From Lacunisphaera limnophila (GTDB lineage: Bacteria > Verrucomicrobiota > Verrucomicrobiia > Opitutales > Opitutaceae), in NCBI RefSeq assembly GCF_001746835.1, contig NZ_CP016094.1, positions 2,170,001-2,234,000 of the forward strand: a stretch of 64,000 nucleotides of DNA, read 5' to 3'. Under the pieces are notes generated by a model. That model had not been told where the DNA came from. It saw only the letters and a program-made list of their open reading frames with translations, and ran no database searches. Made by a program: the position numbers and the translations under genes. This document shows, one piece after another, positions 60,262 to 64,000 of this stretch. The first letter of the stretch is position 1; each line of letters starts with the position of its first letter.

Positions 60262-61878
60262 CTACTGGAGAAACACTTTCTTATATTGGTGCAGGCCGAG
60301 AAGGGAAGGTTCCCAGCCGCGGACGGCGGGGGCGATGAGGTAGGCGCGGGTGCCGAAAAAGACCGGGGCGATGGGGGCTTGGTCCAGCAGCCGTGCCTCG
60401 GCCTGCTGGAAGAGTTCGTGACGGGCGGCCGGGTCGGGCGTGGCGGCCGCCTGGCGAATGAGGGCGTCGTAGGCGGGGTCGGCCCAGCCAGTCCAGTTGT
60501 TGCCGCCGGTGGAGACGAAGAGGTCGAGGAAGGTGACGGGATCAACGAAGTCACCGATCCAGCCGGCGCCGGAGAGCGTGTAGGCGAGGGTCTGCTGGTT
60601 TTGCACCCAGGTCTTCTGCTCGAGCGGCGTGAGGGTGAGGGTCACGCCCAGTTCCTTCTGCCACTGGGCTTGGAGGACCTCGGCGACGCGGGGTTGGTGC
60701 TCGTCGTTGCGGACCTGGAGGTCGAGGGTGGGCAGGCCCTGTCCGCCGGGAAAACCGGCGGCGGCGAGCAGGGCGCGGGCGGCGGCGAAATCGGTCGGCA
60801 CGGTGGCGCGGGCGGTGTAGCCGGCGCTGGCGGGCGGCGTGAAGTGGCGGGCGGGCGTGCCGGCGCCGCGCAACACGGTGGCCGCGATGGCGTCGCGGTC
60901 GATCGCGAGGGAGAGGGCGCGGCGAACGCGCGGATCGGTGAAGGGCGGCCGGGTGGTGTTGAAACGGAGGAAGATGGCCTGGAGGAACGGGTCGAGTCGG
61001 AGGGCAGCGGGTTGGTCGCGACGGTAGGTCTCGAGCTTGGCGGTGGGCAGGCCGTAGGTGACATGGACCTGGCCGGCGCGGAAGTTGCGTTCTTCGACCT
61101 CGGGGCTGTCGGTGGGGAAGAAGATAATGCGCTCGAGGCGCACGCTCGCGGCGTCCCAGTAGGACGGGTTTTTCGTGACGACGAGGCGGGACTGGGGGGA
61201 CCACTCGGCGAGGGTGAACGGGCCGTTACCGACGAGGTTGCCGGGGCGGGTCCAGGCGGGGAGTCGCTGGCGCAGGTCGCCGAATTGGGCCAGCACGCGG
61301 GGATTGATGGGGAACCAGGCGGGTTGGGCCGTGAGCGCCGGGAGGTAGGGAATGGGCTGTTCGAGGGTGACGCGGAGGGTGTGGTCATCGAGGGCATCGG
61401 CGCCGAGGGCGGTGAAATCGGTGAGCTGGCCGGCGTTGAGGGCGGCGGCGTTTTTAAGCGGGTGGAGGAGGTAGGCGTACTCGGCGGCGAGGGACGGCGA
61501 GAGGATCCGGCGCCAGGCGGCGACGAAATCGTGGGCGGTCAGGGGATCGCCGTTGGACCACCGGGCGGCCGGGCGCAGGTGGAAGGTGTAGGTGAGGCCG
61601 TCCGGGCTGACGGTCCATTTTTCGGCCGCGGCGGGGACGGGTTGCGAGGTGCGTTCATCCAGGGCGCAGAGACCCTCGAATAGGGCGACCGCGATGTTCT
61701 GGTCGGTGTAGGCCGAGATGAGCTGGGGATCGAGTTCCTGGGGTTCGGCCAAGTTGCCAAGGAGGAGGGTGCCGCTGCGGGTGCCGGCGTCGGCGGGGGA
61801 CTCGCGCCGGGTGCAGCCGGCAAGGAGAGCGAGCAGGCCGGACAGCAGGAGAAAGACAACCGGGAGCGGGCGGGACAT
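60262..61878 (-). CDS. Oligopeptide-binding lipoprotein (ABC transporter, OppA family)
   Basis: Solute-binding protein of a peptide ABC importer, 538 residues. Lipoprotein signal with LLAGC, Cys22 being lipidated. Family 5 extracellular solute-binding fold: TLLLGNLAEPQELDPQLISAYTDQNI (38-63), YTFHLRPAARWSNGDPLTAHDFVAAWRRI, GNGPFTLAEW and RRALSLAIDRDAI. The ATG at 61878 puts the lipobox at the right place; the longer frame upstream is unrelated. No permease or ATPase gene is nearby. Confidence 0.92.
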   Translation of the reverse strand: MSRPLPVVFLLLSGLLALLAGCTRRESPADAGTRSGTLLLGNLAEPQELDPQLISAYTDQNIAVALFEGLCALDERTSQPVPAAAEKWTVSPDGLTYTFHLRPAARWSNGDPLTAHDFVAAWRRILSPSLAAEYAYLLHPLKNAAALNAGQLTDFTALGADALDDHTLRVTLEQPIPYLPALTAQPAWFPINPRVLAQFGDLRQRLPAWTRPGNLVGNGPFTLAEWSPQSRLVVTKNPSYWDAASVRLERIIFFPTDSPEVEERNFRAGQVHVTYGLPTAKLETYRRDQPAALRLDPFLQAIFLRFNTTRPPFTDPRVRRALSLAIDRDAIAATVLRGAGTPARHFTPPASAGYTARATVPTDFAAARALLAAAGFPGGQGLPTLDLQVRNDEHQPRVAEVLQAQWQKELGVTLTLTPLEQKTWVQNQQTLAYTLSGAGWIGDFVDPVTFLDLFVSTGGNNWTGWADPAYDALIRQAAATPDPAARHELFQQAEARLLDQAPIAPVFFGTRAYLIAPAVRGWEPSLLGLHQYKKVFLQ

Positions 61879-61975: not shown

Positions 61976-64000
61976 GTGAGTTCCCCATCCCCTTCCGCCG
62001 CCGACCGGGTTGCGGTCGCTCCGGCATTGCTGGAACGGCATGGGGCGGCGCTGCGCACATACCTGGCCCAGTTGCCGGGGGCGGATCGGACCGCCGTGGA
62101 AGCGGTGACACAGGCCGTGCTGAGGGAGATCCAGGAACAGAAGGATCTGGAGGAGGATCCGCTGGTGTGGCTTTTCGCCCGGGGCCGGCAGCAGCTGACC
62201 GGGACGGGTCATCGCGGTGACGGCATGCTGGCGCAGACAGACGAGGCGGCGGAAGCGGATGATCCGGCGGAGGACGGGCGGGTGGCGGTGCACCGGGTGT
62301 TTGCGCGGCTGACGAGCAAGCAGCAGGAGGCGTTGCGGTTGAAATTCCAATTTGGGTTCAACGCCGAGGAGACGGCCCGCATCACGGGACTGTCTCCGGC
62401 CGGGGCGAGTGGTTTGTTGCATCATGCGATCGAGCGGGTGGTGGCGGCGACGGCGGCGGGGCGGTCCAAGGCGTCGTCGGTGATCCGCGATCCCCGGATC
62501 ACCGCTTATGCGTTGGAGGAGATGGGGCCCGACGAGAAGCAGGCCTTTGTGGCGAGCGTGGCCGACGGCAAGGCGCTGCTGACCGGCACCGAGGCGATCC
62601 GGCAGGCCGGGCGGCAGCTGAGGCAGATTTTGGAATCCGGCGAGCCGCTGCCGAAGCGGCGCCGCCGGCGCAAAGGCGGAGCGGGCTTTCGCTTGGGCCT
62701 CACCGCGCTCGTTGTCGTGGGGTTGGCCGCGCTCGGGTGGTATTTTATCGCGCGCTCGCGGGCTCCCGGACGGGGAGAAGCGACCGAGGGTACCGGGCCG
62801 GGGTCGGCCGGGCTCCAAGCGTCGGCAGGGAAGGAGCGGGCAGCCGGTGGCGGGCCGGTCGGAGCCGGCGGTCAAGGAGTGGTGGCGCGGACCGCGCCGG
62901 GTCGAAACCTGCGACCGGGGGAGGCGGAGTGGGAAAGGAAAGCCTTTGGTCACGGCAACGGGCAGGCGGCGGGTGCAACGGGCGGAGCCAGTGCGGCGTT
63001 GCCCGGAGGCGGCATGGGCGGGGCGGAGGCGGGCGGGGGGGGAGGTCTCCGGAGTCCCGGTGCCCCGACGGGGGCACTCGGCACCGACGAGGCCGCCTTG
63101 GCGCAGGGAGAATATAGCGATGATGAAACGGCACCGACGAACGGCCGCGCGGAGGCCACGTTAAAGGCGGACCCGGCGGCACTGGCCGCAGAAGCAATGG
63201 ACGAGCCGGCGGATGCCGGGCCGGTCCAGGCGGCGAAGGTAGCGCGGTCCGCGCCGCCTCGAACCGCTGCGCGGCAACCGGGGGAGACGCCGGCGGCACC
63301 GGCCGAACCGGGAGAGGGGAAGGAGGAGGCGATGCGATCCCAGGCGAAGGCCGCGCCTGGGCCCGGGATCGGGGGTATGCGAAAGCGGCTCGCGGACAAA
63401 GAATGGCCGAAGACGGAAGAGATCCACCTCGCCGAGATGGTGCGGCAGGGACCGCCGGAGCCGCCGCGGCCGGAGGTGGCCGCGGCGGAGGAACCGTTGA
63501 CGGCCCAGGTGGAAGTGGCGCCCTCGCCTTGGACGCCCGGGCGATCGATCGTGCGGGTCTCAGTCCGGGCGAAGCCGGTCACGCCGCCGGCGCGCACGCC
63601 GGTAAACCTGGTGCTGGCGATCGATGTGTCGGAATCGATGCGCGGGCCGAACCGGCTGCCGCTGCTGCAGGAAGGCATGCGGCTGCTGGCGGAGCGGCTG
63701 CGTCCGGATGATCGCGTCGCGGTCGTGACTTATGCGGGGCAAGCGATCGAGGTGTTGCCGAGCCAGCCGTTGGGCGCGCAGGCGCGCGAACTGCGCGGCA
63801 GCTTGAACGGGCTGACGGCGGCGGGGCGCACGAACGGTTATGCCGGGCTCGAACTCGCCTACGACGTGGCCCGGCGGGCGCAAGCGGTGGGGGGGAAGAG
63901 TGTCGTGCTGCTTTGCACGGACGGAAATTTCAACCTGGGGGAAACGGACGAGCGCGTGCTGGCGGCGCGGGCGGCGCGGGAGGCCGCGGGTGGGGTCACG
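61976..64000 (+). CDS. Sigma-70-like / DPRxTAYAL / transmembrane / von Willebrand A fusion protein (3' end outside the window)
   Basis: One open frame of 675 codons, with no stop, running off the right edge. GTG start preceded by AAGGGGGG. Residues about 15-75 resemble ECF sigma region 2 (AVEAVTQAVLREI, DPLVWLFARGRQQL). 106-155 is a clear sigma region 4 helix-turn-helix (LTSKQQEALRLKFQFGFNAEE, LSPAGASGLLHHAI). 170-225 starts RDPRITAYALEEMGPDEK, the N-terminal domain usual in YfbK-like vWA proteins. A transmembrane span covers about 237-258. A 270-residue Gly/Ala/Pro linker follows, then a vWA domain with a complete MIDAS: Asp550, Ser552, Ser554 (DVSES), Thr619 (GRTNG) and Asp649 (CTDGN). Elsewhere the sigma factor and the vWA protein are separate genes; the fusion is inferred from the uninterrupted frame. 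Confidence 0.8.
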   Translation, partial: MSSPSPSAADRVAVAPALLERHGAALRTYLAQLPGADRTAVEAVTQAVLREIQEQKDLEEDPLVWLFARGRQQLTGTGHRGDGMLAQTDEAAEADDPAEDGRVAVHRVFARLTSKQQEALRLKFQFGFNAEETARITGLSPAGASGLLHHAIERVVAATAAGRSKASSVIRDPRITAYALEEMGPDEKQAFVASVADGKALLTGTEAIRQAGRQLRQILESGEPLPKRRRRRKGGAGFRLGLTALVVVGLAALGWYFIARSRAPGRGEATEGTGPGSAGLQASAGKERAAGGGPVGAGGQGVVARTAPGRNLRPGEAEWERKAFGHGNGQAAGATGGASAALPGGGMGGAEAGGGGGLRSPGAPTGALGTDEAALAQGEYSDDETAPTNGRAEATLKADPAALAAEAMDEPADAGPVQAAKVARSAPPRTAARQPGETPAAPAEPGEGKEEAMRSQAKAAPGPGIGGMRKRLADKEWPKTEEIHLAEMVRQGPPEPPRPEVAAAEEPLTAQVEVAPSPWTPGRSIVRVSVRAKPVTPPARTPVNLVLAIDVSESMRGPNRLPLLQEGMRLLAERLRPDDRVAVVTYAGQAIEVLPSQPLGAQARELRGSLNGLTAAGRTNGYAGLELAYDVARRAQAVGGKSVVLLCTDGNFNLGETDERVLAARAAREAAGGVT

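Follow-up and report, generated by a model that had tools for sequence, protein, structure and literature searches.

A sigma factor-like unit fused to a YfbK-type vWA protein in Opitutaceae: a candidate membrane-anchored sigma mimic

The window analysed here, a stretch of 64,000 nucleotides of Lacunisphaera limnophila (contig NZ_CP016094.1, positions 2,170,001 to 2,234,000), ends within a gene that joins a sigma factor-like unit and a YfbK-type vWA protein in a single frame. Genome comparison established that the fusion is conserved within the Opitutaceae, that its sigma-like part has lost the signature of a sigma factor, that the sigma4-like part and the vWA domain are under constraint, and that a genuine free sigma/YfbK pair is usually present in the same genome. 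As a tentative interpretation, somewhat short of an even chance, we suggest that the protein is a membrane-anchored pseudo-sigma which uses mimicry to switch a genuine pair of sigma and anti-sigma factors. The wider proposal of a family of transmembrane sigma mimics, in which the metal site of the vWA domain would read an outside signal and the genuine pair would be switched by mimicry, is put forward with a little more reserve.

The fusion gene (61976..64000, forward strand, as for all features of the gene given below) starts with GTG at position 61976 and runs uninterrupted past the window end until it meets a stop codon at 64615 in window numbering, which corresponds to locus coordinates L004:3977-6616. 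Its product has 879 aa, the first 675 of which are covered by the window. The original prediction, that both parts lie in one frame, was borne out, as there is no frameshift and no stop at residues 155–170. The layout was confirmed to comprise a sigma2-like part, a sigma4-like part, an anti-sigma-like domain (the N-terminal domain of YfbK), a membrane helix, a linker, a vWA domain with an intact MIDAS, and YfbK_C. The predicted order of a sigma-like unit before and a MIDAS-bearing vWA domain behind the membrane helix is likewise supported by Pfam matches, the AF2 helix, and the motif. The sigma2-like part (aa 8–77; 61997..62206), which lacks the signature residues, is delimited by AF2 helices at aa 8–31, 38–54, and 62–77. 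Pfam Sigma70_r2 did not match the fusion protein, in agreement with the earlier impression of a degenerate region 2. The sigma4-like part (aa 101–160; 62276..62455), in contrast, shows AF2 helices and a Sigma70_r4_2 match above cut-off (aa 103–153, 2.1e-8), so that the sigma factor match expected for residues 1–160 is significant for region 4 but not for region 2.

The anti-sigma-like domain (DPRITAYALEE..., aa 171–222; 62486..62641) shares 43% identity with the N-terminus of the adjoining free YfbK (9e-7). It is followed by the predicted membrane helix (aa 234–260; 62675..62755), recognized as an AF2 helix and by eye in the sequence, with the stretch KRRRRRK just before it, and by a low-complexity linker (aa 261–467; 62756..63376), which shows little constraint in the two pairs of relatives compared. 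A vWF_A-like segment (aa 468–527; 63377..63556) is indicated by its alignment to the free YfbK and by a weak match to vWF_A (PF12450) below the cut-off (0.047; 14.1 bits vs. a cut-off of 25). The vWA domain proper (about aa 544–706; 63608..64000 within the window, ending at 64093 outside), with the MIDAS elements DVSES, T, and D, is supported by Pfam (VWA_2, aa 545–650, 7.4e-14), motif, alignment, and AF2, and YfbK_C follows at aa 782–873, outside the window (3.6e-7; 31 bits vs. a cut-off of 25). The protein thus combines the MIDAS-bearing vWA domain and the YfbK_C domain of the YfbK family. In pairwise alignments, its N-terminal part shares 30% identity with the adjoining free sigma (7e-13), and the rest shares 33% identity with the adjoining free YfbK (4e-59). 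Since both parts resemble these neighbors, the fusion looks like a second, one-frame copy of the pair. AF2 models of aa 1–275 (mean pLDDT 87.2, pTM 0.77; 109-row alignment) and of aa 466–879 (pLDDT 91.4, pTM 0.82) were obtained; in the former, the sigma2-sigma4-like unit and the anti-sigma-like domain are predicted to pack compactly. The predicted helix and the positive charges preceding it would place the sigma-like part inside and the vWA domain outside.

The original prediction did not mention that the DPRxTAYAL region is probably an anti-sigma domain, nor that the fusion is closely followed by an intact sigma/YfbK pair. The former assignment is based on the neighboring free YfbK, aa 13–143 of which match the NCBIfam anti-sigma model NF052375 (7.3e-8), albeit with 32.7 bits vs. 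a cut-off of 100; the anti-sigma models of Pfam and NCBIfam did not match the fusion protein itself directly. In class I pairs, helix 1 of the anti-sigma factor binds sigma4 (PMC7406223). The corresponding helix is largely kept in the fusions (D172 in 20/21, R174 and A179 in 18/21 each, L180 in 21/21), whereas other residues of the domain are often lost (P173 kept in 13/21, Y178 in 10/21, E187 in 11/21, E222 in 4/21). YfbK of the two-gene pair may, judging from its sequence, be an anti-sigma factor. A contig scan of species genomes with the whole fusion, of which the best 80 of 426 related loci were kept, revealed a sigma ORF and a vWA ORF sharing a locus in 46 of the 80 (L060–L139, across phyla), mostly on the same strand but divergent in several Bacteroidota loci. 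This suggests that YfbK-type vWA proteins, often encoded beside sigma genes, form a wide class of anti-sigma factors, to which the fusion would also point; in the open-licence literature, no paper on YfbK as an anti-sigma factor was found. None of the same best 80 of 426 loci held both parts in one ORF, consistent with the expectation that the parts are two genes elsewhere, and a scan of the species genomes' contigs with the N-terminus of the fusion did not reveal a relative.

All 21 fusion vWA frames show D-x-S-x-S and the MIDAS threonine in the outer part, and 19 of them also the aspartate motif; the exceptions are G129, the frame of which stops before the motif, and G161, where the pattern fell on another stretch. 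The MIDAS columns D85, S87, S89, T154, and D184 are invariant in an alignment of 85 rows (20 fusions, G161 included), so that the vWA domain of the fusion may bind a metal ion. Foldseek matches of the outer part were scattered over many vWA proteins.

The vWA domain of YfbK appears, from such comparisons, to be a losable inserted module, as if a sensor had been cleanly excised. Free YfbK proteins without a BLAST-detectable vWA core, but with the flanking segments kept, occur in seven carriers of the fusion, all of genus g40 (G096, G133, G149, G157, G159, G160, G161), and in 14 genomes without a detected fusion, namely G071 and 13 of 20 further regions, which were picked mainly for short frames, so that no rate follows. 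Such proteins with intact vWF_A and YfbK_C are encoded, for instance, at L035 6449-7864, L036 6389-7765, L043 5204-6466, and L047 5277-6980; further loci are L170–L172, L174, L224–L229, L231–L234, L236, L237, and L242, altogether in 21 Opitutaceae genomes of several genera. The idea that the fusion supplies the vWA domain lost by its neighbor was dropped, because non-carriers also lack it and other carriers (G000, G129, G158, G197, G203, G207, G040, G074, G109, G116) have a free YfbK that retains it. Two other types of frame were observed: two ORFs that match the sigma profile and adjoin the pair (L115 8379-9554, 392 aa, and L049 8927-10000, 358 aa), possibly coding for extended sigma proteins, and a second class of long Opitutaceae frames in which only the first ~60 positions of YfbK_C match (e.g., G134:C58:8494, G097:C57:16313, and G001:C13:54563).

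Of the 252 Opitutaceae genomes compared, at least 21 encode the fusion (loci L004, L035–L043, L170–L181). Homologs thus are not always two separate genes, the outcome that would have spoken against the original prediction. In 20 of the 21 carriers, the source genome included, the sigma-like part and the vWA domain lie in one frame on one contig; the G129 frame is cut by a contig end, and the G149 fusion is split over two contig ends. Among the genomes listed, 12 of 13 of genus g40 and five of 21 of the source genus g1 (G000, G197, G203, G207, G209) carry the fusion, the remaining carriers being G109 (g19), G129 and G186 (g27), and G181 (g7). In a sample of 387 genomes of the phylum searched at E up to 1e-25, single-frame matches to both parts were confined to the Opitutaceae among the matches listed.

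As far as the trees show, the family arose once in the Opitutaceae, from a copied free-sigma/YfbK gene pair. In the vWA/YfbK_C tree, all fusions form one clade (120 rows, 20 of them fused; SH-aLRT 100 with a quick method), and in the sigma-part tree a single branch separates all of them from the rest (73 rows, 21 of them fused; ultrafast bootstrap/SH-aLRT 96/96); the fused branches are long, and long-branch effects are possible. G129, with its truncated vWA domain, was left out of the vWA tree, and the N-terminal and C-terminal parts of the G149 fusion were used for the sigma counts and for the vWA tree, respectively. Moreover, all 21 fusions have T113 and K115, positions occupied by P in 44/44 and by N in 43/44 free sigmas, respectively. 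Repeated independent fusion is disfavored because both halves form one clade and these two residues are common to all. In most g1 and g40 carriers the fusion lies 5' of the pair; its position 3' of the pair in G129 requires a rearrangement or a second event.

Directly 3' of the fusion gene, outside the window, the forward strand encodes a 185-aa free ECF sigma (64767-65324) and, 3' of it, a free YfbK-type protein of 744 aa (65376-67610). The divergent upstream neighbor (60262..61878, reverse strand), which we take to be an OppA-like lipoprotein gene and beyond which lies a presumably DNA-glycosylase-like gene, serves as a landmark of the locus: by tblastn, it was detected near the fusion in all carriers but G109 and G181 (19 of 21), and also at 11 of the 13 loci searched in non-carriers. 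Further downstream, outside the window, the reverse strand encodes two large, repeat-rich proteins of a secreted type side by side (L004 9725-13039 and 13175-16537), the C-terminal tails of both of which we presume to be PEP-CTERM-like.

In 17 of the 21 carriers, the search revealed a free sigma/YfbK pair, and it adjoins the fusion in 11 of them. It follows directly 3' in ten (G000, G096, G133, G149, G157, G158, G159, G161, G203, G207), with frame-to-frame gaps of -4 to 139 nt, and directly precedes the fusion in G129. In five carriers (G160, G197, G040, G074, G116) the pair is located about 2–10 kb away, and in G109 it sits on another contig. As to the other four carriers, a full pair was not found in the broken contigs of G209, where only a YfbK was detected, on a contig other than that of the fusion, and no free pair was found in the broken assembly of G162, with its short contig. 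G181 has no detected free pair, and in the G186 genome no free YfbK_C was found and only a truncated sigma remnant exists, which is located directly 5' of the fusion (L180 3976-4401). The last two genomes, which seem to lack an intact pair, offer the clearest evidence against the fusion being strictly linked to a neighboring pair.

The fused and the free sigma sequences differ in region 2, as revealed by residue counts (fusion numbering) in 21 fusions and 44 free Opitutaceae sigmas, the sigma fragments L049_19 and L180_4 being left out. D43 and D47 are present in 44/44 free but 0/21 fused sequences, Q46 in 44/44 vs. 3/21, F49 in 43/44 vs. 1/21, H61 and V69 in 44/44 vs. 0/21, D76 in 44/44 vs. 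1/21, and K80 in 43/44 vs. 0/21. We take D43–F49 to belong to region 2.2 and the other lost residues to regions 2.3–2.4. Regions 2.1–2.2 of sigma factors contact the beta' clamp helices of RNA polymerase (PMC7406223). Pfam detected region 2 in one of nine fused members (0.0067) vs. nine of nine free sigmas, and region 4 (Sigma70_r4_2) in seven of nine vs. nine of nine. The core of sigma4 is kept, with Q116, E118, and L122 in 21/21, L112, F128, and I136 in 20/21, and H149 in 19/21 fusions, but the surroundings of the recognition helix are altered (V141 in 2/21, N143 in 8/21, and R156 in 2/21, vs. 42/44 free sigmas each). Of the features of an ECF sigma, the fusion hence has region 4 but not a region 2 with the core-binding and -10 signature. 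Because these signature residues are lost across the 21 fusions, the fused part is most likely not a working sigma held at the membrane.

In two pairs of relatives, G133/G159 and G040/G074, dN/dS values, calculated with approximate domain borders, were 0.05 and 0.11 for sigma4, 0.53 and 0.16 for sigma2, 0.22 and 0.14 for the anti-sigma-like domain, 0.56 and 0.46 for the linker, which is weakly constrained, and 0.05 and 0.07 for the vWA domain. The low values of sigma4 suggest that this part is maintained rather than drifting, even though two pairs are few.

PhyR, described as an alphaproteobacterial response regulator with a receiver domain and a sigma mimic, acts as an anti-anti-sigma factor by partner switching with NepR. 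For comparison with PhyR, we used nine of the 21 fused and nine of the 44 free Opitutaceae sigma sequences. With E limited to 0.01, the profile of the fused parts (46% mean column identity) matched 12 PDB sequences, three of which are PhyR (9cb6, ranking second with 2.2e-8, 2lfw, and 9by5), whereas PhyR was absent from the 25 PDB sequences matched by the profile of the free sigmas. As the latter profile (79% mean column identity) is narrower than the fused one, a profile of nine hand-picked divergent free sigmas (53%) was added as a control; none of its 41 PDB matches was PhyR. Among single sequences, PF22233 (PhyR_sigma-like) matched two of nine fused members weakly (best 0.0073, 16.5 bits vs. 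a cut-off of 27), and PF22029 (PhyR_sigma2) matched six of nine free sigmas weakly (best 0.0016). In the fold search with the inner part, the top rows (Z 9.0–10.4) included sigmas bound to anti-sigmas (5uxx, 4cxf, 5wuq), PhyR (9cb6, 4qic, 9by5), 9n9q, and SigG1 (7qh5), an ordinary sigma; Z values of 9–10 are modest, since among helical proteins values below about 13 may not be unusual. Several sigmas of initiation complexes aligned with the inner part over both domains only at an rmsd of ~26 Å. The likeness in profile and fold to PhyR and to anti-sigma-bound sigmas fits a closed pseudo-sigma, and, as in PhyR, the sigma-like unit lacks the sigma's own signature, as judged from the residue counts and from the profiles with the two controls. 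Pfam (E up to 1) did not detect a receiver domain in the fusion protein, which is therefore not a PhyR but at most PhyR-like in action.

From these PhyR-like features and the gene position, partner switching with the genuine pair can be envisaged as follows. A copy of the gene pair of a free sigma and a YfbK-type anti-sigma would have been turned into one frame in the Opitutaceae, and the product would be anchored in the membrane with the sigma2-sigma4-like unit and the anti-sigma-like domain inside and the metal-site vWA domain outside. Binding of a ligand or partner to the vWA domain may shift the inner unit, the sigma4-like part of which would then compete for the anti-sigma domain of the genuine pair, usually one encoded next door. 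The true sigma would thereby be released, as in the action of PhyR on NepR, but from the membrane. The carriers G181 and G186 without a detected free pair, G162 and G209, in the broken contigs of which no full pair was found, the five carriers with a distant pair, and G109 with its pair on another contig argue against the mimicry reading, as do the weak PhyR_sigma2 matches of the free sigmas, the frequent loss of anti-sigma residues, and the modest Z values.

Among other explanations, it is rather unlikely that the sigma-like part merely folds, dimerizes, or shields the anti-sigma domain, the protein acting via its vWA domain or by holding the free sigma with its own anti-sigma domain. A decaying sigma2, the retained anti-sigma helix 1, and the conserved vWA domain would suit such a relic or scaffold, but the core residues of sigma4 present in 21/21 fusions and its dN/dS of 0.05–0.11 point to a specific contact, although a contact in cis with the fused anti-sigma domain could also account for them. 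The original prediction had offered as its alternative that the sigma part may have lost promoter binding, and this comes closer to the evidence than its first choice. A membrane-anchored DNA-binding regulator, which would place its sigma4-like helix-turn-helix on DNA without core RNA polymerase, either tethered or after proteolytic release, seems slightly less likely again. Of the inner parts, sigma4 shows the strongest constraint in both pairs for which dN/dS was calculated, and its fold matches sigma4 domains including that of sigmaE region 4 on -35 DNA (2h27, Z 7.9), yet the surroundings of the recognition helix have mostly changed.

We consider it improbable that the protein is a working one-protein device in which its own anti-sigma domain holds the sigma until intramembrane proteolysis, following a signal at the vWA domain, frees it. 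The order of the parts is as in IutY, the sigma of which is freed by cleavage with Prc and RseP (PMC5411451), the inner unit is compact in the predicted model, R71 is kept in 21/21 and W65 in 13/21 fusions, and sigma4 is conserved; however, the region 2 signature residues persist in only 0–3 of the 21 fusions, the Pfam region 2 model hardly recognizes the fused members, and sigma2 is less constrained than sigma4. What is supported of the original prediction is the fused architecture rather than its first choice, a ligand-controlled sigma released by proteolysis, since each region 2 signature residue is missing from all, or almost all, of the 21 fusions. A sequencing or assembly artefact joining two genes that are separate elsewhere can be dismissed, since 20 further, independent genomes share the join (19 of them on one contig), the source genome is a single contig that also holds the normal pair, and both halves form one clade.

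In a search of open-licence papers other than the ECF reclassification, the matches listed contained no description of an ECF sigma/vWA-YfbK fusion. The likely source of the fusion is the two-gene pair of an ECF sigma and a YfbK-type vWA protein, which has the same parts in the same order but consists of two proteins, the free sigma of which keeps the signature residues lost from the fused part. Fused anti-sigma extensions are known from ECF48, ECF52, ECF53, and some ECF36 members (PMC8999054); a word search of that article gave no mention of a vWA domain, while the outer part of the present fusion is a vWA/YfbK domain. IutY of Pseudomonas putida (ECF243) is a hybrid of a cytosolic sigma, one membrane segment, and a periplasmic anti-sigma domain (PMC5411451). 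Like such hybrids, in which a cytosolic sigma-like part, a membrane segment, an outer domain, and a C-terminal anti-sigma part form one chain, the Opitutaceae fusion unites a sigma-like part, an anti-sigma-like part, and a single predicted membrane segment. However, its anti-sigma-like domain would lie inside, before the membrane helix, whereas that of IutY is periplasmic, and sigmas of the IutY type are held to be active after cleavage, whereas the fusions lack the region 2 signature residues. With PhyR, the fusion shares a two-domain sigma-like unit and similarity in profile and fold, but it differs from PhyR in that no receiver domain was detected and in that it carries a vWA domain, a predicted membrane helix, and an anti-sigma-like domain. 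If the proposed mimicry is correct, outside signals would reach transcription via a membrane-tethered sigma mimic rather than via sigma release, and one chain would do what IutY-type hybrids and PhyR do separately. With the real pair beside a worn fused copy, and with carriers and non-carriers in one family, the Opitutaceae would make the evolution of sigma mimicry testable.
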